From positions 186,001-250,000 of the forward strand of contig NZ_AMSG01000001.1 in assembly GCF_000300875.1 (NCBI RefSeq): a stretch of DNA of 64,000 bases, in the 5' to 3' direction. A model generated the notes under the pieces. It was not told where the DNA came from, did not search any database, and worked only from the letters and a program-made list of their open reading frames with translations. Of the stretch, positions 41,794 through 60,565 are shown piece by piece. The stretch is from Galbibacter marinus. Its GTDB lineage: Bacteria; Bacteroidota; Bacteroidia; Flavobacteriales; Flavobacteriaceae. The translations under genes and the position numbers were made by a program. Numbering within the stretch: the first letter of the stretch is position 1; every line of letters begins with the position of its first letter.

Positions 41794-43512
41794 TTATATA
41801 TTACCTTTTTTAGACTCTTTTATAGCATGATCACAGGCTCTAGCCGTCAATGCCATATATGTTAGAGATGGATTTTGGGTGGCTGTAGATGTCATACAAG
41901 CCCCATCAGTTACATAAACGTTTTTACAGGCATGTAATTGGTTCCATTTATTGAGCAAAGATGTTTTAGGATCGTGTCCCATTCTAACACCACCCATTTC
42001 ATGGATATCCAATCCTGGCGCTTTATCAGTAACATCATTGATGGAAATATTTTTAAAACCAGCCGCTTCAAACATTTCAGTGAATTGCTCTATATAATCC
42101 TTTATCATTTTACGATCGTTGTCGTCATAATCCAAATTGATTCGAAGTTGTGGAATGCCGTATTGATCTGTTTTCTCCGGATCTAAACTCAATGTACTTT
42201 CTTCCTTAGGAATAGTTTCTCCCATCATATGAGATCCAACATTCCAATTGCCATAGGTTGGCTTAGTTAAATTCTTCTTTAAATCAGCACCTAATCCTTC
42301 AGAACTCTGCTCAATGCGACGTGAGGCGCCAAATCCTGCAGCATACCCTCTTAAGAAATCTGTTTCTTGCTTATAGACATTTCTAAATCTTGGAATATAG
42401 CCACTTGTCGGTCTTCGCCCAACAGTAGTTTCTTCAAGATTTCCTTCGTACTGAGCGTTTACACTCACGCGGTAGTTATGAAAAGCAACGTATTTACCAA
42501 GAAGTCCATTGTCGTTCCCCAAACCATTAGGGAAACGGTTAGATTTGGAGTTTAATAAGATCATATTGGAGTTAAAAGCGCTCGCGTTTACAAAAATAAC
42601 AGGTGCAAAATACTCCACTGTTTCTTTGCTATGTGCATCGATCACTTTAACACCTGTAGCCTTTTCTTTTGTATCGTCATAAATTATAGAATGCACTACA
42701 GCATTGTGACGCATGGTTAGATTACCTGTTTTTTGAGCCCATGGTAAGGTACTTGAATTACTACTGAAATAGCCTCCAAAAGGACATCCACGACGACAAA
42801 GGTCTCGCGTTTGACACATAGCTCTTCCCTGTTGAATAAATATATCCTTATTCTCTGTGATATGAGCGCAACGTCCGTAAATTACGTGACGCTGATTGTT
42901 ATATTTTTTGGCCACCACATCCCTGAAATATTTCTCGGTACCATTTAGACCCATGGATTTTAAAAACTCTCCATCAGGTAAGGTATCGAGTCCATCATAT
43001 TCACCTGAAATACCAACAAATTTTTCTACATAACTATACCATGGAGCTAAGTCCTTATAGCGTATTGGCCAATCTACAGCAAACCCATCCCGTGCAGGTC
43101 CTTCAAAATCCAAATCTCCTATACGTTGAGTTTGACGGGCCCATAATAGTGACTTCCCTCCTGTTTGGTAACCACGGATCCAATCAAATGGTTTTTCTTG
43201 GATATAGGGCTGTTCTTTGTCTTTGGTGAAGAAATGCTGTGAATCCTCCATAAAATTATAACATTTAGCCGCAATAGGATTTTCCTTTTTTAAATCATAG
43301 GGAACACGGTTGCCGTGTTTAAGTTCCCAAGGCATCATGTTGGTGGTCGGATAATTTTCAATATGCTTGACCTCACGACCACGTTCTAAAACCAGTGTTT
43401 TTAGTCCCTTCTCAGCAAATTCTTTAGCAGCCCATCCACCACTCATACCCGATCCTATAACGATGGCATCATAACTATTTGCTTTTGTACTGTCTATATT
43501 AAAACTAGGCAT
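41794..43512 (-). CDS. GMC-type FAD-dependent sugar dehydrogenase, large subunit
   Basis: The 572-residue protein has the dinucleotide-binding motif VIGSGMSGGWAAKEF (about residues 18-32), the GMC-like GYQTGGKSLLWARQ, and the C-terminal HEMGGVRMG and STATQNPSLTYMA segments with candidate catalytic His/Asn. It fits the gluconate 2-dehydrogenase/FAD-glucose dehydrogenase group. Cys233, Cys239 and Cys243 give C-x5-C-x3-CP, the spacing of the 3Fe-4S ligands I recall for the catalytic subunit of FAD-dependent glucose dehydrogenase. It overlaps the small-subunit gene by 8 bases. There is no signal peptide, fitting export with the small subunit. The substrate (sugar or sugar acid) is unproven. Confidence 0.87.
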   Translation of the reverse strand: MPSFNIDSTKANSYDAIVIGSGMSGGWAAKEFAEKGLKTLVLERGREVKHIENYPTTNMMPWELKHGNRVPYDLKKENPIAAKCYNFMEDSQHFFTKDKEQPYIQEKPFDWIRGYQTGGKSLLWARQTQRIGDLDFEGPARDGFAVDWPIRYKDLAPWYSYVEKFVGISGEYDGLDTLPDGEFLKSMGLNGTEKYFRDVVAKKYNNQRHVIYGRCAHITENKDIFIQQGRAMCQTRDLCRRGCPFGGYFSSNSSTLPWAQKTGNLTMRHNAVVHSIIYDDTKEKATGVKVIDAHSKETVEYFAPVIFVNASAFNSNMILLNSKSNRFPNGLGNDNGLLGKYVAFHNYRVSVNAQYEGNLEETTVGRRPTSGYIPRFRNVYKQETDFLRGYAAGFGASRRIEQSSEGLGADLKKNLTKPTYGNWNVGSHMMGETIPKEESTLSLDPEKTDQYGIPQLRINLDYDDNDRKMIKDYIEQFTEMFEAAGFKNISINDVTDKAPGLDIHEMGGVRMGHDPKTSLLNKWNQLHACKNVYVTDGACMTSTATQNPSLTYMALTARACDHAIKESKKGNI

Positions 43513-44059
43513 TTGTATTAATTTTTTCGTTAGGGTTAATAGTGATTGTTCGATATGAAAAAGCCCCAGGAACTAATTGGTAAGGCATTAGCTTAGTAAG
43601 GTAATACTCCGTGTTTTTATATCCCCAAACGCTTGTATGCTTAGTCGTGTTTAAAAAATCATAAACTGGTTTAGGGGTATCTTCTGCTTCTAAAAGCGAA
43701 GAAAGGATCTCTAAACGCTTTTCCGCATCTAAAGAAACAAAATCATCATAATACCACTCTCTTACTAAAGGGTTAAAACTACGAAGACCAGAGAGAAAAG
43801 AAGCTTGTTGCTCTGGTGAAGCGCAATCATCAATCTGAATCCATATAAAGTTCTGTACTTTAAGGGCGACTCCTCCAGGGGTATCGGTTTCTGGCAATAT
43901 GGTATCGACAATGGATTCTAAAAGGATTTCTTCATCAGTAGTTATCTGTAGTTTATTCAAAACTATAGGAACGCGGTCTGGTGAAAAGTTACAAGAGGGC
44001 ATTAATAACAATCCTCCTGTGACCAATCCAATGTTTCGAAGGGCGGTACGTCTTTTCAT
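43505..44059 (-). CDS. Gluconate 2-dehydrogenase subunit 3-like small subunit
   Basis: The 184-residue protein starts MKRRTALRNIGLVTGGLLL, a twin-arginine leader ending in a lipobox-like LMPSC (Cys23). The body matches the gluconate 2-dehydrogenase subunit 3 (hitchhiker) family, with ILPETDTPGG and the GFRSFN-like region near DDFVSLDAEKR. It is translated with the GMC gene (8-base overlap) and probably carries the large subunit across the membrane through Tat. The usual cytochrome c subunit is not encoded nearby. Upstream lies a non-coding region with an array of dyads. Confidence 0.87.
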   Translation of the reverse strand: MKRRTALRNIGLVTGGLLLMPSCNFSPDRVPIVLNKLQITTDEEILLESIVDTILPETDTPGGVALKVQNFIWIQIDDCASPEQQASFLSGLRSFNPLVREWYYDDFVSLDAEKRLEILSSLLEAEDTPKPVYDFLNTTKHTSVWGYKNTEYYLTKLMPYQLVPGAFSYRTITINPNEKINTNA

Positions 44060-44159: not shown

Positions 44160-44355
44160 CCTCTTAGAGGGTGTTTATTTATAGGTCGAAAATGTTCAAT
44201 TCAAACCATAATTCATACTCAAAACACTTAATATTATTATTTACAGTGTTTTACATAAATTAACAGTGTGTCTTTCCTTAGGAAAAGTGTTGAGTTACTA
44301 TTTTTTCCTTCGAAACAGTGTTGCCAACCACATTTTTTCCTTGGAAAAAGTGTAA
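44160..44355. repeat. Helically phased AGTGT/dyad array
   Basis: AGTGT occurs on the plus strand at 44245, 44265, 44286, 44317 and 44349, with intervals of 20, 21, 31 and 32 bases (two or three DNA turns), and inverted as ACACT at 44224, 21 bases before the first. The last three copies each follow a dyad: TTTCCTTAGGAAA (44273-44285), CCTTCGAA (44307-44314) and TTTTTCCTTGGAAAAA (44334-44349). An outlying CCTCTTAGAGG (44160-44170) followed by GTGT has a similar build. The layout suggests binding sites on one DNA face, upstream of the dehydrogenase operon. No regulator is known. Confidence 0.55.
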
Positions 44356-44462
44356 AACCCTTTGTTTACATTAACCTATTTGATAGAAAATAAGTGATAA
44401 GGTTTTTATTATGGCTCAAGGAAATTCAATTATGGATCAATTATAACAATTAGCAAAACTTG

Positions 44463-44496
44463 AAAACAAAAAAACCATCTTAAAAAAGATGGTTTT
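44463..44496 (-). terminator. Terminator after tRNA-Cys
   Basis: An 11-bp stem AAAACCATCTT (44471-44481)/AAGATGGTTTT (44486-44496), loop AAAA, then TTTGTTTT on the minus strand. Confidence 0.8.
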
Positions 44497-44502
44497 TACT
44501 AG

Positions 44503-44573
44503 AGGCATCGAGCGGATTCGAACCGCTGTACAAGGTTTTGCAGACCTCTGCCTAGCCACTCGGCCACAATGCC
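44503..44573 (-). tRNA. tRNA-Cys (GCA)
   Basis: Read on the minus strand the cloverleaf has acceptor GGCATTG/CGATGCC (one G-U pair), the D-arm GCC..GGC, an anticodon arm GAGGT-CTGCAAA-ACCTT with anticodon GCA, the T-arm AGCGG-TTCGAAT-CCGCT, and discriminator T (U73), typical for Cys. CCA is not encoded. It lies 97 bases downstream of folB in the same direction and has its own terminator, so it may be read through from folB. Confidence 0.95.
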
Positions 44574-45123: not shown

Positions 45124-46089
45124 CTATCGCATCATACAACGACAGTTACTGATACCCTGAAAGATATCCACCCCTAAGGTAATCATATGCGTTCCTGTAC
45201 TATACGCTTGGATTTCATTGGTTATAAGTTGGTATGAATAAGCAAAGTAAAATGCACCTTTTTTCATTCCCATCATTGGACCGATATTCAATGGAGTAAA
45301 AAACTGATCGTTTAAGAATCGGTAACTGATTCCAGCCCAATAGTAGTCTTCAAAATCCCAGAACCTCATTTTCATGTTGACATCCGTGGATGAGCGCCCG
45401 TCACTCTCGAAGAGTTGGTAAAACACACTAGGTTCCCATTCAAATCGAGAGGTGATTTTCTTCTTGTATCGGTATCCGGTATACAGATAATAGTTTCTTA
45501 GAGTATTAGGTTCGTTGATTGCAAAAAGGTCTAATTGTTTGTTTAAAATATTTGAAGCGTTTAGACTTGCAAAGAACCCTCCGCTTCTAAGCAGTACCCC
45601 GACATCAAAGTTATGGTTCGTAGTGGAACGGTTATCCGTGATTCCAGGATCATTTACCCCTGGAGTTCCATCTCCATCGGTATCAAAATCTTTAGCCTCT
45701 AAGCGAAACTGATTAATATTATAAGAAATCCCAAAAGACAGAAAACGATCCTCTTGGTTGTTTAAAGTCAAATGGTGTGCAAAAGAGACCCTGGCTCCCA
45801 TCTGACGAGTATTTCCGTTTTTATCGTTATAAATAAGCCCACCTACTCCTGATTTTTGACCTAATCGGACATCACCAACTAATGTCTGTGTATCTGGGGC
45901 ATCCTTTATTCCTACCCATTGGGTAAGGGCATTTCCACGAATTTTAACGTAATCTCCAATGCCAGCATACACCGGAGATATTACGAACTCATTATCTGCT
46001 AGATACTGTGTGAATGTTGGCAGGGTCATCTCTTGTGCTTGAGTATATAACCCTGCTGTCATTAGTACGATTGCTATATATTTTTTCAT
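45124..46089 (-). CDS. sprF: PorP/SprF family T9SS outer-membrane protein
   Basis: PorP/SprF proteins help deliver or hold T9SS type-B adhesins at the cell surface. The 321-residue protein has a signal peptide (MKKYIAIVLMTAGLYTQAQ) and a beta-barrel pattern with the family-like start PTFTQYLADNEFVISPVYAG. It starts 13 bases after the stop of the giant SprB-like gene, the same order as sprB-sprF in Flavobacterium johnsoniae. The start at 46089 is chosen over an in-frame one at 46143, which would lie inside the giant gene and put extra residues before the signal peptide. Confidence 0.88.
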   Translation of the reverse strand: MKKYIAIVLMTAGLYTQAQEMTLPTFTQYLADNEFVISPVYAGIGDYVKIRGNALTQWVGIKDAPDTQTLVGDVRLGQKSGVGGLIYNDKNGNTRQMGARVSFAHHLTLNNQEDRFLSFGISYNINQFRLEAKDFDTDGDGTPGVNDPGITDNRSTTNHNFDVGVLLRSGGFFASLNASNILNKQLDLFAINEPNTLRNYYLYTGYRYKKKITSRFEWEPSVFYQLFESDGRSSTDVNMKMRFWDFEDYYWAGISYRFLNDQFFTPLNIGPMMGMKKGAFYFAYSYQLITNEIQAYSTGTHMITLGVDIFQGISNCRCMMR

Positions 46090-46102
46090 GAGTTTCAAAA
46101 GT

Positions 46103-49100
46103 TTATCTATACAGAGTAAAGTGACCAACAAATTCTCTATCATCAGTATCTCCGTTTAATTTCATTACATACCAGTAATCACCCGTTGGAAGTTCAGTTC
46201 CATTATATCTTCCATTCCAAGTATCACCTTGGCGTAACTCAGCCACTACACGTCCGTAACGGTCGTAAATTTTGGTAATGATATTGGGGTAATGGAGACT
46301 ATAATTCGATGGCGGCCAATAATCATTTTGGCCATCACCATTAGGGGTGAAAACATTTGGTATTTTGATGTCAATAAATTCCATATCGATCTGTGCGATT
46401 TGCTGACATCCATTGGCATCAACTATCATCACTTGGTACACTCCACTGACTCTAATTACATAACTAGGTTCACTACCCTGAGATACACCATCAACAAAGT
46501 ATTCATAAGGAGCAGTTCCTCCATTTGGATACATGGTAAACTCATTGAGATTGGATTCATTAACAGTAAGTCCTAAAGGTTGAACTGGATCCACAGTAAA
46601 TTGAACCTCACGTTCACAGCCAAAGTATGACACGGTTACTGTGTGTTCTCCTGGTGCCACATTGGTAAACTTGTTATCAAATTGATCTGCACCTCCATCA
46701 AGGGTATAAATTACATCTTCTAAATCTTGCTGACCTATTATGATCTGAACTTCGTTAGCAGCGGCATTACTTACACAAGTTACTCGTACTTCTGCTTGTG
46801 GATTAAGATCTATTGGTTCTTTAAGTGACACCTGTACATGTTGCTGACAACCGTTAGCGTCTCTTACAAATACCACATAGGTTTCTCCTCCTTTAAGGCC
46901 GTTAAAGATTCTTCTGTCTTGTTCAAAGGCATTATTATCTTGCGTATTAACTGCTGTTGAATATGGTGGTGTTCCACCTTGAATAATCAATTCAAAACTT
47001 CCTGTACCATCACCTGTACAATACTCCTCATTAAGCACATTGGCTTTAGCCTCAAGTGGTGGTGGGGCTATAATTTCTTCTTTGAATACGAAAGGATTAC
47101 AACCTCTAGAATCCTGGGCTATAATAGTATAGGTTCCTGGAGCTAAGTCTTCAAAAACATTTTTACTTTGGAATTGATCTAGGTTTGGAGAGATCGCATA
47201 TTGATATTCACCAGTTCCTCCCACTAGCTCTACCTCAATACTTCCTAAATCATCAGTACATACAGGGTTGAATATAACGGGTGCTTTTGCAGTCAATTCA
47301 GCACCTTGATCAATTTGAACTCGAACCTGCTCAAAACAGTCCTCACTATCTACTTGAACAAAGTACACGCCTGATGAAAGACCACTGAAGGTATTTCCAT
47401 CTTGTTTGTCAATTAGTGTTACATTGCGAATCGCATCTATTAAAGTGTATTTATAATTTCCAAGTCCTCCTTTAACATCTACTTTTATATAACCAGTAGC
47501 ATCACCATAACAACTCACATCCGACACCACCGTAGGAGTCAACTCAAGTGGTCGTATTGGAGAAAGTGTTACACTATTTGATACTATTGAAATACACAGG
47601 TTAGAATCCCTAACAAAATACGTATGGATTTGCTCGGAATTTATTACACCAGGAACGTCTATTTGTACCGTATTGCCACTTCCAAAAGAAGTCCAAGGCC
47701 CATTTGCTGAAGTACTGTATTCATATCCGGTTCCTGTTCCTCCAACCGCTGTTAGCTTTAAAGTAGCACCTGTGGTACATGTATTGCTTTTTAGTAAACC
47801 TAATGAAGCTATAACTTGATCAGGTTCAGTAATGGAAACTGGAGTCGTGTCAGAATCACAGCCGTGATTATCAGTAACGGTTACACTATAATTACCAGCA
47901 CCCAAATTGTAAAACACATTTGACTCTTGAGGCGCAGCACTCGACATAATAGCGCCACTTTCATCCAGCCTATTTAAAATATATAAATAGTTAACTGATG
48001 CATCAAAATCAGGTCTACCACCAGTAGCGGTAACCGTAATACTACCTGTATAATCTCCTTCACAAAGCACATCTATTGATGATGATGTTGCGGAAGTAAT
48101 GATTGGATCAGGTTTAACGAATGTTACGGTTTCGAAAATCATACAACCTTCAGCATCTTTCACGTATACATCATAAGTACCCGCTGCAATACCGGTAAAG
48201 GTAAACGTCGTACTAAAGTCTGCTTGGGATGGTACAACACCTGAGTTAACTAGTGCAAACTCATATTCACCCCATCCTCCAGATGCACTTGCAGAAATTT
48301 CTGCGGCATTGTTTTCACAACTCAAATCTTCCACAATAGCGACACTTAAGTCTAATGCTTTTATTGGAGCCTTGATTGTCACAGTATTTGTTGTTTCTGG
48401 ACAGAAAGGGGTCTCTAATGATGTAATTTCAACATAATAATTTCCAGCAGCAACTCCAGCAATTGTAACGATTCCAGGTGCTGTGCCTGTTCCGGTAACT
48501 GAAGTAGAAGTACCAGCACTATTATAAACTTCGTACGTAAAGGCTCCCGTATAATTAGCAACCTCCACAGTGATCTCACCTGTTGCTGTATTATAACAGT
48601 CAATAGGCGAGCTAGCTGTTGCTATAGAAGTTATAAGATCATATGGAGCTACGGTATAGGGTTCAGTAATAAAGAAACATCCCGTAGTCGTATCAGTAAT
48701 CTTAAACACATAATCTCCAGCAGCTGGTAGATTAAAGTTGGCTACCTGTCCTGAAATTGTTTGTGAGGGCCCACTTGGCAGTAATTCTATCACAAATTCA
48801 CCGGAACCACCGTCAATTTCTACACTGACGCTTTCTGAGTTTGAACAAGTAATCGCTGTAACTGGTGTTACATCTACTGTGTTTATTTTCGGTAGTGGGT
48901 TGATACTTTGTATTCTAGTATCAAAACATCCATTAGCGTCCTTAACATATAAGGTATATGTTTCAACATTTCCGGTATCAACCACGTCAAACACATTATT
49001 AGTTTGATAATTAACACCATCAATACTGTATAGATAAGGCGCGGTGCCAGTTGTTGGATCAACTGTTACTGTAATCTGACCTAAAGCAGTAGTGTTACTT

Positions 49101-52100
49101 GGATTACACGCAAATTCTGTTGTCACCGCAGCTGTAAAGTCTAAAGCCACAGGTTCAGTAATGGTTACATTCGTCTCATCAAAACAACCTAGATCCGAAG
49201 TCACTCTTACCACATAATTACCTGCTGGAAGGTCAGTAAACAATCCATTAGTATTGGTCGCAGTAACAGGGCCACTTAGGGTATAGGTATAAGGAGGGTT
49301 TATAGTTGTAGCCGATGTAACAGTAGCCTTTATAGCTCCATCAGTCGCGTCTTTACACGAAACATTAATTTGGTTGCTGATCTCAATTACAGGAAGAACC
49401 GGTGCACTTAATTCCAAATCAATAGCATCATCACAGCCCTCACTATCGACAACGTTAAAGGTATATGTTCCAACTTGATCTAATCCTGTAAAGCTAGAAA
49501 CAGCTCCATTGTTGACCGTAGTTCCATCAGGGAATACAACACTGTAAGTGAAGTTTCCAGATCCGCCATTAGGGTTGATAGTCACTTCACCTGCTACATT
49601 GTTATTAGAAACATCACATGAAATTACCTTATCAATATCATAGCCTAAGCTTATCTCTTCAAATAGAGTAGCAGTATCGGTAAGGGTAATTGAACAATTC
49701 CAATTGTCTGAAATTCTAACCTCATAGGTTCCTGCTCCTAGATTAGTGAACGTGGCAGTATTTCCAGTTTTTGGAGAACCAAAGTCCAGTCCATCTTTAA
49801 TCAATTGGAACGTGTAAGGTCCTCCAGATCCACCAGTAACGTTATCTACTGTAATTTCGCCTGCTAATCCTTCACAATTAGGTGCACTTACTGAAATACT
49901 GCCTGTTATGGCAACTGGTTCAGTAATCTCTTCAGAAGGCAATTGAATTGGACAACCTTTTTGATCAATTACCCAAATTTCATAAGTCCCTGTAGCTAAA
50001 CCTTCAAAACGAGGGTTATCCACATAATTATTGATATCATTTGAATCTGAAATAGGTGAAATACCTACATAGTATTTATAACCACCCCATCCACCTGATG
50101 CATTAATTACCTCAATAATACCATCATTAAGATCGCAAGTTTGAGGAGTCACAGTTGCTGACGCAGTTAATGCTGCCGGTGGTGTTGCAATTGTAAAATT
50201 TCTGGTTTGACTACAAAAAGGAGCATCATCTTGAACTACTTCCACAGTGTAAACACCCGCATCAAATTGATTTATTGTTATGTCGGTATTACCTACACCA
50301 ACAGCAGACTTGATTGCTGTAGAACGATCTCCAACAGTTCCTGTTTGATCATAAACATATATAGTTACACCTCCGGTGTAGGTTGGGTCAACTAGTTCTA
50401 CAGTAATTTCTCCTGTTGCAGAACCTAAACAAACCGCACTTGATACAACATTTAAATTAATATCAAATGTATTAGGATCAGTTAATTCTTCGAAAACTAT
50501 TAATTCACAACCCGTTTCAATATTGACCACCTTAACTTGATAGCTTCCAACTTCTAATCCGGTAAATGTCTCGGTGGTTCCTGTAATAGTTTTCTTTTCT
50601 ATTTGTGTCCCTGCACTATCATATAAATAAAATTCTAAAATTTCTGATGTATGTCCTAAATCTAAGGTAGCATTTACTTGAATAGTCCCATCTCCTCCTT
50701 TACATGTCGGGTTGGTTGGGATAGTTTCTATCTTTTCTAGTTTGTTATATGCTATAACATCAATATCATCAGTGATAGAACATCCATTTTCGTCATAGAC
50801 GTTCACTACAACATTTCCACCTAAAGGATTTGAAACATTGAACTCGGTTTCAACACCGTTTTGAGTTCTATCATCGGTAGTGTCCAAAGGCGTCCCACTA
50901 TCATAAATGAATTCATAGAAATAACCTCCCTCTCCTCCAGTAACACCTGTGACGGTGACCGTAGCCATATTTAGGGTGTTTCCAGTAGTACAGCCAAATT
51001 CCATAACACCTAGGTTCAAACCAGTTAAATTTGCTGGCTGATAAATCGTGGCTTTGACAGGTACTGATTCACAAGCATTAGCTGCAGCGGCAGTAATTAT
51101 AATTTCATATTCAATTCCGGCTACAGCTCCAGCCAATCCTGTAAAAGTTGCTTGATAACCATTTGTAGTATCCGGTTTGATCGTTTGTGGACTTCCACCA
51201 CTAGATACAATTTCAAAAGTAAATGGTCCTACACCATTATCTAAAGCAGTTACAGTAATGGTTCCGTCCGATCCTCCATAACATGTAACATCCGTTGTAA
51301 TAGGTTTTCCTAAAACCTCAGGTATTACCTTTTCAGGCACTTCAATAGTCCTGGAAACCACACAACTAGTTATAGCATCTCTAAGTGTGATGGTATAGAT
51401 ACCTGCCATGTTTGCCTGTGTGAACAATTTTGAATTTGGAGGTATCGAAGTCGCCAAGGGTGTATCTGGTTCCGGGGGAAATCCAACAGGTCCACTAATT
51501 GAGTAGAATATGTTAGTTGAGGCATCCACTGAAGAACCGCCTTTTACTTCAAAGTATATTTGAGCATTTTTACCTCCATCACTTGCACTTTGACAATCTA
51601 AGGCCTCTGTTACTTCTAATTTGGCAAAAGCTAATGGCTCATATATTTCAACATTTGCAGTTCCTGAAACAGTACAACCATTACTGTCTTTTACCATAAT
51701 TTCATAGGTTCCTGTAGAAAGATTGGTAAATACATTTTCATCAGCAAGTCCGTAAGTTGTTCCTCCATCAATAGAATAATAGTATGGCGCTTTACCTTCC
51801 TTAACATCAATTGTTATACTTGAATTACCTTCACAATTGTCTGCTACGACACTCTCAATTTCAGGAGGTTGAGTAATACTTAAAGTTACCTGTCCTATAT
51901 CTTGGGCACAACCGTACTGATCTTGCACTGAAACATGAACAGTAATATTTTCCGCTGTCGGATCCAATATATTCTCAATAGAGACTTCCATAGGATTATC
52001 GGTGGTGGTGATAAAGTCGATAGCAGGGTCATAAGTACCGTCTCCGTCAATATCAAAATTGGTACTGGACAAAATGTAAGTATATTCGCCGCCGCCACCT

Positions 52101-55100
52101 TCAATATCAGGAACCACAATTAAACCAGGGGTTTCACAAGTGATATCCCTTAATTTTTCTGGAGTTCCAGTAATTGGATCTAGTTGTTTAATTCTAATAT
52201 TTTCTGTTGCAGTAACACATGCATCATTTCCTGCATTGTCAATTTGAGTTACTTTCACATAATAATCACCAGGAGCCAATTGGTTTGGAATAATATAAGT
52301 CTCTGGTGATGTAAAAGGAACGTCCGATGCACTGGAAAAAATTGCGGTTGGATTTCCTAATTCGTAAAGCTCGTATCGAATATAAGGCTCTACCGTTGCA
52401 TCATCGTCTTTGAGCGTAAAAGATATTTGACCATCATTTACACCCGCACAAGAAGGCTCATAATTAAGTTCAATCTCCATTGGCAATTCTAACCATTCAT
52501 TAACATCTACGGAGCTTTGACGTATACACCCTCCACCTGAAGAATTGTCCTTAACAAAAAACGTATATGTTCTTCCTGGTACTAATCCAGTAAAAGTATA
52601 CTCATGGGGTCCCTCGTTGGTTGCAGGAGTTGGGGTTGTCCAGCCATTTTCAGGATTGAGAGGATCAAAATTGAACACATCCTCTGTGTAGGTATATTGA
52701 TATCCTGGTATTCCCCTCTGGCCTATAACCGTCACTGAAAGCATATCCGAAGTACAGCTAACTTCCGTGGAGGTGATTTTTATACTTAAATCATCTAGTG
52801 GATACGGAATTAAAAATTTATCAAACTCATAGAAACAAACAACTTCACCTTCAGCGTTAGTGGTTCGTATTGCTGGATAAACCACATCACCAGGAGCATA
52901 GGTACGGAAATCATTGGTTGATACCCAAGTTGGTGAAGGATCGTTTACATCATCTGTGTATTGAACAGTTAAGCCAGGATAGGTTGGCACATTATTTATA
53001 TCAAATCCAAAATCGCCAGGAGTTGCTCCACAATCGGTAATTGTAGGGACAAGTTCCCCACTTAATTCCTCAGGATTTATAATAGCTTCTGACTCATCGT
53101 CACTACAACCATAGTTGTCAGTTACCGTAACTGTATAATTTGCAGCCGGTAAGTTGAAATATGTTGCCGATGTTGCCGTATAGTTTTCCTCAACTTTTAT
53201 ATTATCAGTTTCATTATTAACTACAATTTTATAAGGCCCAACACCTCCGCTGATTTCAATAAGAATTGAACCTGTTTCATCGTGACACTGAGGTTGTGTT
53301 GGCGTTGTTATAACGCTTATAGCATCAAACGCTTTTACAGTTACGGTTTCTTTAAAAAGGCAAGCGCCTGAGCCGTCTTTTACAACAACATCATAAGATC
53401 CTTCGTCCCCTGGATTAACCACATAGGTTGCATCAGGAACAAAACTTGCTCCTCCATCAAAACTATACTGATAATTACCATCACCGCCAGTTGCAGTCAC
53501 TTTAATGGAACCAGCTGTACAAGCTATATGTGTTACATCAATACCAGCATCAAGATCTTCCCTTACAATAACGGTTTGCGTAGCAGCTGAGCAGCCGTAG
53601 CCATCTTTAACAGTAACCTGGTAAGTTCCTGGATCTAAGTTTTTAAACTCATGGTGATTCTCGTCAACATTTGTTGGGTAGAAAACACCACTACCATCAC
53701 TTAGACTGACCGCATAATCTTCATTACCTTTAGTTATTTCTACTTTAATTCCGGGAGTATAAATACCTCCTTCACAGGCTGTAGTCGTTACTTCGAACTC
53801 GATATCGTCAGGTGCAGATATCGTTATTGTATCGGTAATATCATCGCACCCGTTACTATCTTTTGCTCTTACAACATAATCACCAATTGGTAAATTATTG
53901 AATATTTTATTATTTCCATTGGCTACAAAACCATAATCTGCAATTACATTTTCATCAGTGTCTTCCAACTGGTACGTATAACCAGGTGTTCCACCGGTTG
54001 CAGTTATCGCTGTAATTGTAGCAGTAGCTGTATTACAAGTGATTTCTGAAGTGATTTGTGCTGTGACCTCGACGGGATCAGGTTGCACAATTGTAAATGG
54101 TATTTCATCACCACAATCTAGAGTCGGATCGGCAGTTTGATTATCTATATCTCTAACATAAAGTGTGTAATTCCCTGGTCCCAAATTCACTGGAATTTCT
54201 AATGTTTCCTCAGTTGAGTTTCCTAATGGTGTAGCGAAGTTACTATCTAGGCTGTATTCATAACCGCTTGCTCCATAATTGTGCACTGCAATTGTAATTT
54301 TGCTATCCGTTAAAGCATTACAACTTACATCAGTAACTCCAACTAATTCAGCATTAAAGCCTTGATTCTCTTCAACAACCACCTTAATATCTTTAAATAG
54401 TGGACATTTTTCCGGGATTTGTGTAACTAGGATATCATCAATAGCTAAGTCATTTCCATCTTCAACTAAAGAATTGGTTCTAATCACCAAATCAAGTTCT
54501 GTATGGCCATTAGGATTTAAATCAATCGTAAATTCTTCCCACTTATCAGACTTAGGAATAACCCCGGTCAAATCTTCTGCAATAATTGCATCATTACTTG
54601 GGTCTACCAACTGAATTACGATATTTGGATCTCCTTTTAGGGGGTTTGAAGTGGATTCCATTAGGTTATGCCCCCAAATAGAAACCTGTACATCTTGGTT
54701 AGGAAGAAAGTCTTTTATAGGTTTTCTATAGATTACACCCCCCATTCCGGCAACACCACCAATGTTAATGGCTATAAATCGGCCTTCCGGATTACCAGTG
54801 TGATCTCTAACATCTACCCAGTCGCCAAAATCCGTTGCGATTCTTTGTGTTACACTATATTCGCCATCATTAATTCTTGTATCATTTATATCTGATTGTG
54901 AGCCACAATTTCCACCAGGCATCTGATCTTCATAGCAATAAATTAAAGAATCAATACTTGGAATACTTGTATTTGGACCAAATCCAAAATCCTCTACCAG
55001 TAGAACACTAGGTGTTGCTGGTAGGTTACTAACATAATTAATTCTTACATCGTGAGTCCCTGGAGTAACTCCATTAAATACATTTTCAGTTTGTTCCGCA

Positions 55101-58100
55101 CCGAGATTAAGTTGGAAGGTATAATCAAATGTTGAAGGTGAAGCACTTACTGTGATATTTCCTGTACCATCACAATTATAAGCGACCGAAGCCCCAAGTT
55201 CAGGATCTTCAGGTCCTTCTTCAACAGTAATAGGCATAGGACCATAGAAACAGCCACTAGCATCTTTTATATACAATTCATATGTTCCCGGCATTAAATA
55301 TTCAGTTGCTGAAGCCCCATAAGATGATCCTCCATCAAAACTATATTGATATGGTGCAGTTCCTCCTTGTGCATTCGTTATCCTAACATCTGCACCCTGA
55401 GTTGGGTTACACTCTACCAAGGCAGCAACATTAGCGGAAGCTGTTAACTCTTGAGGTTGTACTATAGTGTAAAACAACTTCACGTCACAACCCTGAGAAT
55501 CTTTTACTACGATATTGTAGTTGCCTGATAATAGGTTCTTAAAGACATTTGAACCTTGGAACGTTGTTCCTCCATTAATAGAATATCCTGTATAGTTCCC
55601 AGAACCTCCACCAGCGGTAATGGTAAGAGTTGATTTTGTACCATTACATAAAATATCTGTGTTTGAAGCGGAAACAGTTAGAGGAGGATCGCTGGCAATA
55701 GTAATATCGTATTTAGCTTCACAATAACCTGCTCCCCCTGTGTGATCCCTTACATATACATCATATTCCCCTGCAGTGGTAATCGTTACGGGATTTGTAG
55801 TGGAGAATCCTGTGGGTGTTACCCCATCAGGCACAATAACATATACATAATTCCCATCGCCACCTACTGCCGTTATTGTAACATCAGTAGATGTCCCGCA
55901 TGAAGAAATAGGATTCGCAGAAGCACTTACTTTCAATTCCGGATCAACTGTAATTGATTTCGTGTCCTTACAATTATTTTCATCAGTTACAGTAACCGTG
56001 TATGTTCCCGGATCAAGATCCTTAAAAATTCCTGTTGTATTGGTTAAACCTCCTTTTATAGAATAGCTTAATACTCCCGAACCTGTTCCTGTTGTAACCG
56101 TAGCTGTAATGGTTAACCCTACAGCCTCATTATAGCAAAGATCATTTGCAGTAAGGGTCAACTGGGGAGCAATTGCCGGTTTAATTGTAATTGTAGTGGA
56201 GACAACATCACATTGATTAGCATCAGATACCTCAACAGTATAATCTCCAGCAAGCAATTCTGAGAAAAATCCAGTTCCATTGCTAGCTAATAAGTTACTT
56301 CCTGCATCATATAAATCATAAGTATAACTACCCCAACCTCCGGAAGCAATAATGCTTATTGTTCCTGGGGATGTTGTGCCTGTGTTAGTACAACTTTCAT
56401 GAGTAACCTCTGGTAAACTTAAAATTAATGGTGTTTGCGGCTCTTCAACAGTAATCTCACTTGAATCTGTACAGTTTGTAGTGTTGTCTGTTACTGTAAT
56501 AGTATATTTTCCGGCAGCTAATCCAGTTAAATCAACGGTATTTCCAATTTGGTCAATCCCATTATCAACTGTTGCACCTGTACCATTAGTGATTGTATAA
56601 TTGTAATTCACAGAAAAACCACTTACCGTGAATTGAATTTCACCATCAGAACCACCTACACAACTGACATTGCTAATTAATTTGCCTACAACATTAATTG
56701 GAGTTAATGTTGGAATAGTTAGATTTTCTTCATAAAAGCAACCTTTTTCATCAGTAACTCTAAATATGTAAGTAACACCGGCGGCTAAATCCTCAAAAAC
56801 AGCATTAGTTCCGTTGTCCTTAACCTCAGTAGCCGGACTTATAATTTCGTACTTACTCGCACCCGCCCCACCTGTTACCGAAAGACTCACATCTGATTTG
56901 CTATCAGGGCATTGAACTATACTCATTGTAAAAGCAATATCTGTAGGTGGTGTTAAAGGGTCAAATGTAATCTCGTCTGATTGTTGTATACAATCAGGGC
57001 TATTTTTATCCCTATAACTAGGAGTATATGTGCCTTCGGTTAAACCACCAAACACAGGACTATCTAGCCAAGTCACTCCGTCAATAGAATATTCAAAGGT
57101 ACCCGATCCTCCAGTTGCATTGGTGAATGTAATTTCACCAAGAGTTAAACATGTATAATTACTTGATGGACCGGCATCAGCAGAAATTTGAACTCCTTCA
57201 TCAATGGTTATATATGTTTCAAAATCACAAACTCTATTTCCTTTTTCACCTCTAACAATAACGGTATATTCGCCTGGTGCTAAATTTGTAAAATTTGGGG
57301 TTCCAATAAAATTAACACCATCTAAACTATAAGAAACATTATACTTTTGGTCATTAATCATATTTATAGAAATACTACCGTCATTTGAATCAAAGCAAGT
57401 TTCATCTGTAGGATTGACCTCATACTCTATTACTGGTTCAACCGTAATCTCAACTTCATTTGAAAAACTGTAGCAGTTATTTCTATCAAAAACAACGTAA
57501 CTATAGGTTCCTTGTTCACCTAATTTAACATCAAAAATTTGCCTTGTTTGCTCAACTCCCTGCATCTCACCAGCTGGAATATCGTCAACACTATTATAAC
57601 TAATCGCTGGAGCGGTTGCCCCTACTGCCGGTTCATAACTCCAAATCGCATAGGTGTGTGGTGTTAGTCCTCCCTCAGATTGTACCTGTATATTTCCTTC
57701 CTTACAGGTTACATTTTGAGAAACCTCTGCTTCAATTGATAAGGCTTCCGGTGTTGTTATTGTATATTTTTCAGAAAAGTAACAGCGATCCTCTGTTGTA
57801 ACCTCTACAATATATATGCCTGGATTAAGGTCTTTGAATTCGTGGTGATTGTCATCAACTGCTTCTTGCTTATCAACGATGTCAGCTGTACCTGTGCCAT
57901 TTTTTAAGACATATGTATACCATCCTCTTACATCTCCTACGTTGATGCTAAAGGATCCTTTATCAGTATTACACGTGGGATTTGTAGTGGTAACTGTAAC
58001 ATTAAAATTACTTTTGGTAATGACCTTATTTTCAAATTTAAATAGACATGGTTGTCTATCGCCATCCTCCACGTCTAAATCTGCTTGACGGATGTAAACA

Positions 58101-60565
58101 TTATAAGTTCCTGGATTTTCAATTTCGAATGAACCGACATCTTGCCAAGTAGCAGAATTAGGATTAAAATTCGCACTAGCCAAGGCTATTGCAAACTCAT
58201 AACCCGAACCAACATTTGTGATATCTATGCTCCCATTCGTATTACAAATGATATTCTCTGTTGTAATTTTAGGATCAACGGCGTTTTCATAAGCCTTAAA
58301 ATAATAACGATTAAAGCAATTATTTTGATAGCGAACCTCTAAACGATATTCACCTGGGCCAGAAAGCAAATATTGGTCTACGGTGCCTACTTCATTCCAA
58401 TCACAAGAGCTATCCTTAGTAGGACAATTATCTATAATTGAAGTATGTTCACAACTATCATCTAATTTTTGCCAACTAAACTCTATTGCATCTGGAAAAC
58501 TAACATTAAGCATCCTGTCATCGTTTGTACCACACAAGAAAAATTTAGGTAATTGGGTCCCATCATTTGTGCACGTAACAACCTGATCTGCATAGGGAAT
58601 TAATGGGTTTGTTTCCGTATTTCCTCTATAGACTAAATGAATAATCTCCTCAAAATCCTTGCAGTCCTCAGCATCTGTTTCTTTGGTAACTTTATAGGTG
58701 CCAATATTTGTGGCAGTATAGCTCACGCCAGTTTCACCAGTAAGTATTTCAAAAGTTCCACTACCATTATCTTTATACCACTGATAACGGTCATAACCCG
58801 CACCTGCCGTTAAAACAGCAGTTTCTCCACATAATTCTAGTGTGCGTTCAAAGCTTCCACACATACTAAGGTCTGGCAGAAAGTTTGAGGATCCAGGAAT
58901 TTCAAATAAACAACCTGTTAATCCTAGAATACTATGATCATTAGTAATATCATTCTTATTCAAAACTCCTTGATAGGAAGCATAACCTAGATTACTTATA
59001 ATGTTGGAGCAAGCGTCCCTTAATTTATCACAATCAGGCTGTACGCGCACATTCATTCGTATTGTATAGTCCTGTTCGATTGTTACATTATCGTCGCCTC
59101 CTCTTTCCTTCTCAACATAAATGTCTGGAATTGTAAAAATTATAGTATTGGTGTCGAAGTTAAAATCGTAGGTGATTTCATGCAATACTCCATTAGCCCA
59201 AATAGGTTCAGGCAAGACAAGTTGCTCTTCAAGAAAATCAACATTTAGTGGAAGTACATCCCGTATTGTAAAGTTGGCTCCATCATCATTCCCGATATTA
59301 TCGAAACTAAGGGTATACTGTATGTATTGTCCTAATTCTACCTGTTGACCTTGAATAGAAACATTATCCAAATTATAAACTCCCTTGGCTAATTTGATGT
59401 CTGGTTCAATGATTTCTACATCGAAGGAAGTAAAAAATATATCATATTTATCCTGAGTAGATATTGCTCTAAGAGTTACCCCTGTTTCATCATTAGGAAT
59501 TACATTATTATTGGAGTTACTTATTTCAAACAAATCAACATCCCAACCCAGAGTGTTTTCACTATTAGGGTTTCTGTTTGGATTAATTACACCTCCATTA
59601 CCATTTGTCTCTGATGAAATACTTCCATTGAAAAAATTATTCCAAGGATTTACATTATTGGAGATATTAGTGAAAGTAGACTTACCGTCCGCCTTGATTC
59701 TAAGCTGATCACCGCCAAGTCCACGATCTCCTTCCAAGGTCATTACCCCCATCTTAGCATTTACAGGAAATCCCTCAGGCAATGTTTTAAATCCTTTAAC
59801 AGGAATATTTAATGATTCTTTTGATTTAATCCCAGCATATCCATCAAAAGTGGTTATTTTTTTCCCAACCATGGTTGGGTTTTCATATATAATTACCATA
59901 GACCATCCTCCAGACATCCCTCCTGTCACACCCTTTCCTAAACTTGCTCTTACATTGGCTACAGTATACTCTCCATTAGGATTGGATAATCCTTGAACAA
60001 TTGAAGTTACATCTTTATAACATGCATACGGGCTGTAATCTTTAAAATCAGAATCATCAGAACCATCAAACAGTACCACATCAGCAATTAAACTAGTATA
60101 ATTACCTCCCGGAGCTTTAAATTTTACTTGATCCCAGTCGTCCTCTCGGCCACTGCTTTTCTTATTTCCTTCATTATACTTATAGACAGCGGACCAATAA
60201 AGTCCTGCATAAACTACTTCACTGCATTCCAGATTTGTTATAGACAAACTTGCGCTACTTGAACTGAAGGTAGAATTATCCCCATCAATATCAATATATT
60301 GCATATTAAATCCATCATTGTTATTATTTCCATTATAAGGATCATTTGGATAAACCGGATCTATCCAATCCCAATTCCAATTCCAATATCCCTCTTCATA
60401 TCGATTTACAATATTATTCCCAATAAAGGTGATGTCCCCTTTGATATTATCTTGGTATCGGATCTCAAAATCTTTTTTTACTTGTGCAGATAAAGCAAAA
60501 ATGCCTGCAAAGAATATGCATGCGAAAAGGGTATAGAATTTTAGGGTAAAGTAGTTTCTTTTCAT
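46103..60565 (-). CDS. sprB: Giant SprB-like cell-surface adhesin (4820 residues), T9SS type-B substrate
   Basis: SprB-like adhesins move along the gliding cell surface and attach it to surfaces. The N-terminus is a signal peptide (LFACIFFAGIFALSAQ). Residues to about 390 form a beta-rich head with the typical CSEVVYAGLYWSAVY, then a DUF11-like domain (about 390-560). About 40 diverged repeats of 60-95 residues follow, mostly starting with a conserved Cys and ending in motifs like GTYTVTVTDENNC. A separate ~200-residue domain interrupts them near residues 1850-2055. The last ~90 residues are the CHU_C/type-B sorting domain (IPNVFTPNGDGQNDYW...), which targets T9SS. The adjacent PorP/SprF genes support the assignment; orthology to SprB itself is not proven. 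Confidence 0.9.
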   Translation of the reverse strand: MKRNYFTLKFYTLFACIFFAGIFALSAQVKKDFEIRYQDNIKGDITFIGNNIVNRYEEGYWNWNWDWIDPVYPNDPYNGNNNNDGFNMQYIDIDGDNSTFSSSSASLSITNLECSEVVYAGLYWSAVYKYNEGNKKSSGREDDWDQVKFKAPGGNYTSLIADVVLFDGSDDSDFKDYSPYACYKDVTSIVQGLSNPNGEYTVANVRASLGKGVTGGMSGGWSMVIIYENPTMVGKKITTFDGYAGIKSKESLNIPVKGFKTLPEGFPVNAKMGVMTLEGDRGLGGDQLRIKADGKSTFTNISNNVNPWNNFFNGSISSETNGNGGVINPNRNPNSENTLGWDVDLFEISNSNNNVIPNDETGVTLRAISTQDKYDIFFTSFDVEIIEPDIKLAKGVYNLDNVSIQGQQVELGQYIQYTLSFDNIGNDDGANFTIRDVLPLNVDFLEEQLVLPEPIWANGVLHEITYDFNFDTNTIIFTIPDIYVEKERGGDDNVTIEQDYTIRMNVRVQPDCDKLRDACSNIISNLGYASYQGVLNKNDITNDHSILGLTGCLFEIPGSSNFLPDLSMCGSFERTLELCGETAVLTAGAGYDRYQWYKDNGSGTFEILTGETGVSYTATNIGTYKVTKETDAEDCKDFEEIIHLVYRGNTETNPLIPYADQVVTCTNDGTQLPKFFLCGTNDDRMLNVSFPDAIEFSWQKLDDSCEHTSIIDNCPTKDSSCDWNEVGTVDQYLLSGPGEYRLEVRYQNNCFNRYYFKAYENAVDPKITTENIICNTNGSIDITNVGSGYEFAIALASANFNPNSATWQDVGSFEIENPGTYNVYIRQADLDVEDGDRQPCLFKFENKVITKSNFNVTVTTTNPTCNTDKGSFSINVGDVRGWYTYVLKNGTGTADIVDKQEAVDDNHHEFKDLNPGIYIVEVTTEDRCYFSEKYTITTPEALSIEAEVSQNVTCKEGNIQVQSEGGLTPHTYAIWSYEPAVGATAPAISYNSVDDIPAGEMQGVEQTRQIFDVKLGEQGTYSYVVFDRNNCYSFSNEVEITVEPVIEYEVNPTDETCFDSNDGSISINMINDQKYNVSYSLDGVNFIGTPNFTNLAPGEYTVIVRGEKGNRVCDFETYITIDEGVQISADAGPSSNYTCLTLGEITFTNATGGSGTFEYSIDGVTWLDSPVFGGLTEGTYTPSYRDKNSPDCIQQSDEITFDPLTPPTDIAFTMSIVQCPDSKSDVSLSVTGGAGASKYEIISPATEVKDNGTNAVFEDLAAGVTYIFRVTDEKGCFYEENLTIPTLTPINVVGKLISNVSCVGGSDGEIQFTVSGFSVNYNYTITNGTGATVDNGIDQIGNTVDLTGLAAGKYTITVTDNTTNCTDSSEITVEEPQTPLILSLPEVTHESCTNTGTTSPGTISIIASGGWGSYTYDLYDAGSNLLASNGTGFFSELLAGDYTVEVSDANQCDVVSTTITIKPAIAPQLTLTANDLCYNEAVGLTITATVTTGTGSGVLSYSIKGGLTNTTGIFKDLDPGTYTVTVTDENNCKDTKSITVDPELKVSASANPISSCGTSTDVTITAVGGDGNYVYVIVPDGVTPTGFSTTNPVTITTAGEYDVYVRDHTGGAGYCEAKYDITIASDPPLTVSASNTDILCNGTKSTLTITAGGGSGNYTGYSINGGTTFQGSNVFKNLLSGNYNIVVKDSQGCDVKLFYTIVQPQELTASANVAALVECNPTQGADVRITNAQGGTAPYQYSFDGGSSYGASATEYLMPGTYELYIKDASGCFYGPMPITVEEGPEDPELGASVAYNCDGTGNITVSASPSTFDYTFQLNLGAEQTENVFNGVTPGTHDVRINYVSNLPATPSVLLVEDFGFGPNTSIPSIDSLIYCYEDQMPGGNCGSQSDINDTRINDGEYSVTQRIATDFGDWVDVRDHTGNPEGRFIAINIGGVAGMGGVIYRKPIKDFLPNQDVQVSIWGHNLMESTSNPLKGDPNIVIQLVDPSNDAIIAEDLTGVIPKSDKWEEFTIDLNPNGHTELDLVIRTNSLVEDGNDLAIDDILVTQIPEKCPLFKDIKVVVEENQGFNAELVGVTDVSCNALTDSKITIAVHNYGASGYEYSLDSNFATPLGNSTEETLEIPVNLGPGNYTLYVRDIDNQTADPTLDCGDEIPFTIVQPDPVEVTAQITSEITCNTATATITAITATGGTPGYTYQLEDTDENVIADYGFVANGNNKIFNNLPIGDYVVRAKDSNGCDDITDTITISAPDDIEFEVTTTACEGGIYTPGIKVEITKGNEDYAVSLSDGSGVFYPTNVDENHHEFKNLDPGTYQVTVKDGYGCSAATQTVIVREDLDAGIDVTHIACTAGSIKVTATGGDGNYQYSFDGGASFVPDATYVVNPGDEGSYDVVVKDGSGACLFKETVTVKAFDAISVITTPTQPQCHDETGSILIEISGGVGPYKIVVNNETDNIKVEENYTATSATYFNLPAANYTVTVTDNYGCSDDESEAIINPEELSGELVPTITDCGATPGDFGFDINNVPTYPGLTVQYTDDVNDPSPTWVSTNDFRTYAPGDVVYPAIRTTNAEGEVVCFYEFDKFLIPYPLDDLSIKITSTEVSCTSDMLSVTVIGQRGIPGYQYTYTEDVFNFDPLNPENGWTTPTPATNEGPHEYTFTGLVPGRTYTFFVKDNSSGGGCIRQSSVDVNEWLELPMEIELNYEPSCAGVNDGQISFTLKDDDATVEPYIRYELYELGNPTAIFSSASDVPFTSPETYIIPNQLAPGDYYVKVTQIDNAGNDACVTATENIRIKQLDPITGTPEKLRDITCETPGLIVVPDIEGGGGEYTYILSSTNFDIDGDGTYDPAIDFITTTDNPMEVSIENILDPTAENITVHVSVQDQYGCAQDIGQVTLSITQPPEIESVVADNCEGNSSITIDVKEGKAPYYYSIDGGTTYGLADENVFTNLSTGTYEIMVKDSNGCTVSGTANVEIYEPLAFAKLEVTEALDCQSASDGGKNAQIYFEVKGGSSVDASTNIFYSISGPVGFPPEPDTPLATSIPPNSKLFTQANMAGIYTITLRDAITSCVVSRTIEVPEKVIPEVLGKPITTDVTCYGGSDGTITVTALDNGVGPFTFEIVSSGGSPQTIKPDTTNGYQATFTGLAGAVAGIEYEIIITAAAANACESVPVKATIYQPANLTGLNLGVMEFGCTTGNTLNMATVTVTGVTGGEGGYFYEFIYDSGTPLDTTDDRTQNGVETEFNVSNPLGGNVVVNVYDENGCSITDDIDVIAYNKLEKIETIPTNPTCKGGDGTIQVNATLDLGHTSEILEFYLYDSAGTQIEKKTITGTTETFTGLEVGSYQVKVVNIETGCELIVFEELTDPNTFDINLNVVSSAVCLGSATGEITVELVDPTYTGGVTIYVYDQTGTVGDRSTAIKSAVGVGNTDITINQFDAGVYTVEVVQDDAPFCSQTRNFTIATPPAALTASATVTPQTCDLNDGIIEVINASGGWGGYKYYVGISPISDSNDINNYVDNPRFEGLATGTYEIWVIDQKGCPIQLPSEEITEPVAITGSISVSAPNCEGLAGEITVDNVTGGSGGPYTFQLIKDGLDFGSPKTGNTATFTNLGAGTYEVRISDNWNCSITLTDTATLFEEISLGYDIDKVISCDVSNNNVAGEVTINPNGGSGNFTYSVVFPDGTTVNNGAVSSFTGLDQVGTYTFNVVDSEGCDDAIDLELSAPVLPVIEISNQINVSCKDATDGAIKATVTSATTINPPYTYTLSGPVTATNTNGLFTDLPAGNYVVRVTSDLGCFDETNVTITEPVALDFTAAVTTEFACNPSNTTALGQITVTVDPTTGTAPYLYSIDGVNYQTNNVFDVVDTGNVETYTLYVKDANGCFDTRIQSINPLPKINTVDVTPVTAITCSNSESVSVEIDGGSGEFVIELLPSGPSQTISGQVANFNLPAAGDYVFKITDTTTGCFFITEPYTVAPYDLITSIATASSPIDCYNTATGEITVEVANYTGAFTYEVYNSAGTSTSVTGTGTAPGIVTIAGVAAGNYYVEITSLETPFCPETTNTVTIKAPIKALDLSVAIVEDLSCENNAAEISASASGGWGEYEFALVNSGVVPSQADFSTTFTFTGIAAGTYDVYVKDAEGCMIFETVTFVKPDPIITSATSSSIDVLCEGDYTGSITVTATGGRPDFDASVNYLYILNRLDESGAIMSSAAPQESNVFYNLGAGNYSVTVTDNHGCDSDTTPVSITEPDQVIASLGLLKSNTCTTGATLKLTAVGGTGTGYEYSTSANGPWTSFGSGNTVQIDVPGVINSEQIHTYFVRDSNLCISIVSNSVTLSPIRPLELTPTVVSDVSCYGDATGYIKVDVKGGLGNYKYTLIDAIRNVTLIDKQDGNTFSGLSSGVYFVQVDSEDCFEQVRVQIDQGAELTAKAPVIFNPVCTDDLGSIEVELVGGTGEYQYAISPNLDQFQSKNVFEDLAPGTYTIIAQDSRGCNPFVFKEEIIAPPPLEAKANVLNEEYCTGDGTGSFELIIQGGTPPYSTAVNTQDNNAFEQDRRIFNGLKGGETYVVFVRDANGCQQHVQVSLKEPIDLNPQAEVRVTCVSNAAANEVQIIIGQQDLEDVIYTLDGGADQFDNKFTNVAPGEHTVTVSYFGCEREVQFTVDPVQPLGLTVNESNLNEFTMYPNGGTAPYEYFVDGVSQGSEPSYVIRVSGVYQVMIVDANGCQQIAQIDMEFIDIKIPNVFTPNGDGQNDYWPPSNYSLHYPNIITKIYDRYGRVVAELRQGDTWNGRYNGTELPTGDYWYVMKLNGDTDDREFVGHFTLYR

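Follow-up and report, generated by a model that had tools for sequence, protein, structure and literature searches.

Three repeat units in Galbibacter marinus belong to an array class found upstream of PDC-S01 genes

PDC-S01 proteins (PADLOC; AAA_14, PF13173, plus DUF4143, PF13635) are computational candidates suspected of a role in anti-phage defence. In its passages on such candidates, PMC12988326 reports roughly 39,000 PDC-S01 genes, places PDC-S01 fourth by frequency among the defence candidates of prokaryotes, and describes validation as pending for most of them. The literature passages on PDC-S01 that we drew on make no mention of arrays upstream of the gene, and in searches of open-licence PMC papers we recognised none that describes such arrays. 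By protein fold, the ATPase and following part of PDC-S01 is closest to the archaeal ATPases SSO1545 and PABY2304 and to the STAND NTPases (NLR, CED-4, Avs); unlike these, PDC-S01 has a C-terminal PD-(D/E)XK-like domain.

On the DNA side, the arrays described below resemble the operator arrays of autoregulatory repressors, in which repeated, often dyad sites lie at or upstream of the repressor's own promoter, about three turns apart. They differ from them in that a large ATPase, apparently through its nuclease-like domain, takes the place of a small repressor as the reader, and in that the paralogues examined keep the 32-33 bp period but vary in unit sequence. In type III toxin-antitoxin loci, short tandem toxI repeats lie directly upstream of toxN. 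PDC-S01 genes likewise have a short tandem array directly upstream, but some of these arrays sit at the promoter, and the repeats show covariation with residues of the protein. Here, we analysed a window of 64,000 nucleotides from Galbibacter marinus (contig NZ_AMSG01000001.1, positions 186,001 to 250,000 of the forward strand), which carries an array of the type found upstream of PDC-S01 genes, although a search of the window found no such gene.

The repeat stretch and its surroundings

An earlier note on this DNA had reported five plus-strand AGTGT motifs within 109 bp, together with one inverted copy, and had taken them as a single array. The list of positions (starts at 44245, 44265, 44286, 44317 and 44349, with spacings of 20, 21, 31 and 32) and comparison with shuffled sequences confirmed the motifs, their spacings and the inverted copy. 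Dinucleotide shuffles gave an expectation of about 0.53 AGTGT copies in the 441-bp region, and more than three copies within any 109 bp occurred in 0 of 5000 such shuffles. The five copies form the densest plus-strand cluster of the window, where clusters elsewhere have no more than two, and the motif is not enriched across the whole window (90 copies observed on both strands versus 112 expected). Counting all 5-mers with at least three different letters on a single strand, four comparable clusters occur in the 64 kb, so the AGTGT count is unusual, yet not unique.

Only the last three AGTGT copies sit in a homogeneous array, for which a repeat finder returned a 22-nt unit of roughly ATTTTTTCCTTSGAAAMAGTGT (Table 1). 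The units at 44269, 44300 and 44332 were 73%, 100% and 91% identical to the reference copy, with spacings of 31 and 32 bp between unit ends. The idea of one array of five copies therefore held for the three right-hand copies and not for the two on the left, which are probably not array units, as they are out of the 31-33 bp period and have another 11-nt context (ATTWACAGTGT); the second of them overlaps the first base of unit 1. The dyads that had been described at the last three copies are real and fall in the three 22-nt units, although the middle one is imperfect.

Table 1 Features in and around the repeat stretch (positions within the window)
Feature	Position	Strand	Evidence or remark
Gluconate 2-dehydrogenase subunit 3 family protein, left neighbour	43505..44059	-	PF13618
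Single inverted AGTGT	44224-44228	-	Nothing ties this copy to the array
Two more AGTGT, context ATTWACAGTGT, 20 bp apart	44239..44269	+	Repeat family D3
Array unit 1, TGTCTTTCCTTAGGAAAAGTGT	44269..44290	+	Repeat family D1; R1 match 44272-44356
Array unit 2, ATTTTTTCCTTCGAAACAGTGT	44300..44321	+	Repeat search and R1 match
Array unit 3, ATTTTTTCCTTGGAAAAAGTGT	44332..44353	+	Repeat search and unit matrix
Place where the PDC-S01 gene of relatives would start	44354..44469	+	116 bp, no detectable coding remnant
Intrinsic terminator of tRNA-Cys	44470..44497	-	Right bound of the stretch
tRNA-Cys(GCA), right neighbour	44502..44573	-	Syntenic in three same-genus genomes

The ORF list of the window showed no protein gene of at least 60 aa inside the array stretch. 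The left neighbour is the first gene of a GMC dehydrogenase operon, starting at 44059 on the minus strand, and the subunit was present in 7 of 7 genomes of the genus, its own genome included. A known RNA element was rejected, as the tRNA-Cys alone reached the gathering score when the window was compared with Rfam. The window also encodes a 4820-aa repetitive protein (46103-60565, minus strand), with what we take to be a gliding/T9SS type B-like C-terminus, and directly downstream of it a neighbour (45124-46143, minus strand) whose product is presumably PorP/SprF-like.

A DNA search of the same genome found no second copy of the array, and a loose 19-nt unit pattern allowing 3 mismatches was not commoner there than its reversed control (107 versus 113 places). 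About two dozen other short DNA matches to the array region, 25-65 bases long, were recovered. Those that were aligned (L036, L038, L039, L005 and L042) hit different parts of the query and were taken as chance, with the exception of L038. In the latter, which is a trpE/trpG gap (L038:1520-1542, genome G210), one unit-like stretch, TTTCCTTAGGAAAGTGT, lies at the trpG start without an obvious array, and is chance or a stray site.

Arrays upstream of PDC-S01 genes

When plasmid DNA was searched sensitively with the repeat stretch, the one match was to a Glaesserella parasuis plasmid (L054). It spans 122 bp, with 72% identity, and stops 6 bp short of the start of a gene annotated as 'ATP-binding protein'. 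The product (P0001) has the domains AAA_14 and DUF4143 and matches PADLOC PDC-S01 at 1.8e-186. As judged by eye, DUF4143 genes of the window's own genome and of its relatives have different repeats at the corresponding place.

We gathered PDC-S01 relatives from plasmids and phages, species genomes (the best 80 of 570 loci) and viral contigs, and compared 108 upstream regions of 180 bp, after dropping 8 of 116 loci with a partial match or a short upstream sequence and retaining the near-duplicates L202/L203, L204/L208 and L205-L207. In this set, which includes the best 80 of 570, self-repeat exceeded the 95th percentile of 541 control windows in 75 of the 108 regions, and the lag was 32 (28 cases) or 33 (44 cases) in 72 of these 75. 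A leave-one-out matrix for the AAAARTGT-type unit gave two chained units scoring above 10 in 76 of 108 regions versus 1 of 90 control stretches, with no clear match at the remaining 32 of 108 genes. The lone matching control stretch (27.1, two units) lies over 400 bp ahead of the PDC-S01 gene at L195, and is perhaps a second array.

PDC-S01-type genes with arrays occur in several phyla, and the unit sequences differ from gene to gene. In the relatives, the units mostly point toward their own gene and sit close to it; at L113, L174, L175, L187 and L191 the arrays score best when inverted relative to the gene, with the 32-33 bp period unchanged. A private unit beginning GGATTnnAATCC, at a locus in the window's own genome (L087), has three copies, all at its own gene, and one place with two mismatches elsewhere. 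A subfamily of PDC-S01 from one genus (g293, L294-L315), about 33% identical to P0001, has AAATTGCCTTGTA repeats with a lag of 33 at several loci, and since these loci have the repeats in common, the arrays seem to be conserved within the subfamily.

Other DUF4143 genes had the same period. The best lag was 32 or 33 in 13 of 17 genes of a first set (5 of 22 matches dropped), with a score above 12 in 14 of 17, and in 26 of 29 genes of a second set, with a score above 12 in 11 of 29 versus 6 of 200 controls. In these other clades, the unit sequences are quite different from the PDC-S01 unit, with the 32/33 lag kept.

The window array belongs to the class of PDC-S01 upstream arrays by its period (32-33 bp in the class) and by the match of its units to the aaAttTtCcntcgAAAAAATGTA matrix, although it does not lie directly upstream of a PDC-S01 gene. 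A unit matrix made from 113 units upstream of 44 PDC-S01-type genes, with the window and L054 excluded, gave the three window units a score of 54.6, and the runner-up on either strand of 793,153 bp from the window's genome had 8.1. Unit 3 had the top single-unit score in the 793 kb (22.3 bits; the best outside the array was 15.1). The sequence model R1, made from 20 chosen arrays and holding no coding sequence, matched 44272-44356 at E 2.5e-8 in the same genome, with the next place at E 0.21. When the window array was matched to itself, the best lag was 32, with a score of 18 versus 15 for the best of 50 shuffles. The 31-bp gap is at the short edge of the class, being shared by 3 of 85 gaps in relatives. 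The window array was outscored by 7 of the 108 upstream regions, one of them (L174) by less than 0.1, and by eye its nearest units are those of Actinobacillus vicugnae (L117), Glaesserella (L054) and Runella limosa (L190).

The association was also recovered in the reverse direction. A search of 395 genomes of the phylum with R1 gave 4 distinct places (six rows, three genomes), 3 of which are directly upstream of a PDC-S01 gene (636-649 bits); this search was insensitive, its strict filters having missed the window's own genome, and the 4 places are no census. The exact 19-nt unit pattern was found at 18 stretches of viral contigs, with a PDC-S01 match in 0 of the 18 in the DNA examined around them, indicating that a single 19-nt unit is not specific and that a chain of units is.

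Residue-base covariation and promoter overlap

The PADLOC models for PDC-S01 matched 85 of the 85 proteins in our alignment (A2, from which 4 of 89 eligible proteins were left out). An AlphaFold2 model of the L117 protein, based on 85 relatives, had a mean pLDDT of 93.5. The folds nearest to its ATPase and following part were PABY2304 (2qen, Z 16.9) and SSO1545 (2fna, Z 15.7), then STAND NTPases, and Foldseek listed ORC/Cdc6 among the closest folds.

To compare protein and array, we used the 49 of 85 aligned proteins that had a unit pair above 20 bits, with 312 variable protein columns and 27 unit positions. Among the 8424 pairs, the top four linked residue 387 with positions 3, 5 and 4 (z 11.3, 9.6 and 9.2) and residue 389 with position 7 (z 7.5), by z-scores that ignore the relatedness of the loci. 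The next pair is elsewhere in the protein (residue 223 with position 6, z 7.3), so that 387 and 389 lead, though not alone. Both residues sit in ENL[387]A[389]SL, a helix directly after the EVK strand, which we take to be part of the PD-(D/E)XK motif.

Lysine at residue 387 went with TTT in both units of 14 of 19 loci and in one unit of the other 5, with A(G/C)T in 0 of 19 and no mixed case. For glutamine at the same residue, 12 of 16 loci had A(G/C)T (3 mixed, 1 not), and arginine followed no simple rule (n = 22: 4 AST-type, 1 mixed, 17 not). At residue 389, lysine was accompanied by C in 69 of 98 unit calls and arginine by T in 12 of 14. A held-out set comprised 12 loci, as 35 of 47 proteins, those without a unit pair, were unused. 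In it, residue 387 fitted in 4 of 4 loci for lysine and 2 of 2 for glutamine (L113 with a one-base shift), and the rule for residue 389 failed in both units of L115 and L113 (in L113 via the shift) and in a single unit of both L204 and L293. Ten phylogenetically independent lysine/glutamine pairs could be formed, of which, as judged by eye, 7 contrast as predicted in both units, 2 do so in one of two units (L163 and L179) and 1 goes against the prediction (L189/L170).

The winged-helix region had been our first guess for the array reader and was not favoured by the whole-domain comparison, in which Mantel correlations were weak (0.12-0.17). Given the covariation of two residues of the EVK helix with unit bases, the protein probably reads its own array, and binding through the PD-(D/E)XK-like part is well supported by this comparison of sequences. 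The window units (TTTTCC) would predict that the lost protein had K387 and K389.

The position of the units relative to promoters was analysed in Bacteroidota, whose -7 consensus box is TAnnTTTG. Of 22 Bacteroidota loci with a unit core, 10 have this box beginning at the last T of the TGT of a unit (27 loci entered, inverted-type loci excluded, register chosen after looking), and the control density elsewhere in those loci was 10 per 27,302 bp. The unit with the box is the last before the gene in 8 of the 10 loci (L107, L136, L160, L169, L173, L188, L195 and L196) and lies further upstream in L186 and L189. A count restricted to boxes past the unit end gave no clear excess over shuffles (7 of 16 versus 5.4, and 18 of 28 versus 13.0). 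At the Glaesserella parasuis locus, the last unit contains TTGAAA, which precedes TAAAAT by 17 bp. In the register of the relatives, the window is without a TAnnTTTG box, as are 12 of the 22 relatives themselves.

The overlap of unit and -7 box in 10 of 22 loci fits autorepression, and combined with a private unit found only at its own gene, it makes autorepression the most likely role; we infer that PDC-S01 arrays may mediate it. The nuclease-like motif is conserved in the putative repressor, which this reading does not account for. The operator-like array on one face of the DNA proposed in the earlier note is supported at the level of the class, whose units are at the promoter in relatives and covary with the protein.

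The missing gene and the readings of the array

Neither tblastn nor a profile search found a PDC-S01 match in the window or in its contig (C1), nor did the genome yield any P0001-clade protein at E 1e-60. Downstream of the array, a possible coding remnant resembling the PDC-S01 N-terminus (GTG at 44394, MIRFLLWLKEIQLW) was rejected, as it scored 12.1 bits versus up to 18.1 for random window starts, and nothing supports the short ORF MAQGNSIMDQL (ATG at 44411) as a PDC-S01 remnant. DUF4143 itself is matched eight times in the genome, with six matches above the family cut-off and some being fragments. Split or fragmentary DUF4143 genes were seen at L093/L104 (G000:C7:98421-98896) and L100 (G000:C2:378550-378732), suggesting that decay of such genes may be common in the lineage.

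At the corresponding same-genus loci, judged by eye, no array was found in the three that keep the tRNA-Cys neighbour across a short gap (L012, L013 and L014), nor in three others (L009, L010 and L011), which have no tRNA either in the 1.5 kb compared and share the dehydrogenase side alone. The gap in the window carries roughly 250 bp of extra sequence relative to the same-genus loci, again by eye. As these loci are without both array and gene, the arrival is visible only as lineage-specific extra sequence. Absence from close relatives had been named in the earlier note as the test that would count against the array; the array is indeed absent there, yet it is real and is explained otherwise.

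We consider it likely that the window units (44269-44353) are the promoter-side array of a lost PDC-S01 gene, whose protein would have bound this array and repressed its own synthesis. In relatives, it is the helix behind the PD-(D/E)XK 'EVK' strand with which the PDC-S01 protein would bind its own array. Next to the promoter, one unit would cover the -33/-7 (or -35/-10) region, with cooperativity added by the more distant upstream units at intervals of three helical turns. The protein would then repress its own synthesis until it is released by something, possibly infection. In this lineage, the gene would have been lost and the array left between the tRNA-Cys and the dehydrogenase operon. 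The observations behind this account are the class of the array, its tie to PDC-S01 genes, the period, the covariation, the promoter overlap in part of the arrays and the failure to find a gene here; binding, autorepression, release and deletion of the gene, rather than arrival of the array alone, are the parts that we infer, and no coding remnant speaks for the deletion. A broader proposal, which we put forward tentatively and with somewhat more doubt than belief, is that AAA_14-DUF4143 proteins are self-addressed. The PD-(D/E)XK-like domain of each would recognise, by a simple residue-to-base code, a private array beside its own gene that repeats about every 33 bp, and the array could outlive the gene, as in the window. 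The proposed code pairs lysine at 387 with TTT and glutamine with A(G/C)T, and at 389 lysine with C and arginine with T.

A second orphan was noticed, a three-unit array at L284:1501-1579 (G742:C57:196701-196779) beside small unrelated ORFs, with no PDC-S01 gene within the 14 kb around it. This array bears on an alternative that we regard as unlikely, namely that orphan arrays are under selection, either because they titrate or tame PDC-S01 proteins arriving with plasmids or phages, or because they mark the chromosome as self. The window array is as intact as functional ones by its score of 54.6, which is odd for an old relic whose gene is missing, and PDC-S01 genes do occur on plasmids and viral contigs. 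However, the orthologous place is empty in three same-genus genomes, only two orphans were found here, and recent loss of the gene is the simpler account of the intactness.

It is very unlikely that the array serves the adjoining dehydrogenase operon or the tRNA-Cys. Unit 1 starts 210 bp upstream of the dehydrogenase start codon, and the earlier note had taken this operon as the target of a sugar- or redox-responsive regulator. That assignment was dropped, and the array was rejected as an operator of the dehydrogenase operon, since the three same-genus loci with the same tRNA-Cys and dehydrogenase neighbours are without it and the unit type is tied to PDC-S01 ATPase genes; moreover, most units of relatives face their own gene and lie close to it, which here would be on the other side.

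We likewise give very little credence to an array that acts at PDC-S01 loci as RNA, in the manner of the repeat antitoxins of type III toxin-antitoxin systems, and is no operator. The resemblance to those systems lies in the tandem repeats, about 33 nt long, that directly precede a possible toxin, but the -7 box at the last unit base in 10 of 22 Bacteroidota loci places the units at or upstream of the promoter there. Many units hold dyads, single base positions covary with residues of the nuclease domain, some arrays score best inverted relative to the gene (L113, L174, L187 and L191), and Rfam matched nothing but the tRNA in the window. Least probable is that a plasmid or integrated element left the array behind as iterons or parS-like sites for replication or partition. 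Repeats of this private kind next to an AAA+ ATPase are reminiscent of iterons with their initiator, and ORC/Cdc6 is among the nearest Foldseek folds. However, the arrays are at genes on chromosome-sized contigs of many species and track the promoter, and the window shows no change of GC skew, which stays negative from about 6 to 64 kb with no change of sign around 44.2 kb, so that neither the replication element suggested in the earlier note nor a chromosomal replication origin was retained.

For the family, an array beside most of the genes examined provides a handle on what PDC-S01 proteins bind and how they are controlled, and the two-residue code makes the specificity testable by swaps of residues and units. 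It raises the question of why a protein with a conserved nuclease motif would read its own promoter. Orphan arrays such as the one in Galbibacter marinus may mark sites where PDC-S01 genes have been lost. If the self-addressed reading is true, one of the commonest candidate defence families would be controlled, and perhaps licensed for self versus non-self, by a diversifying cis-array.
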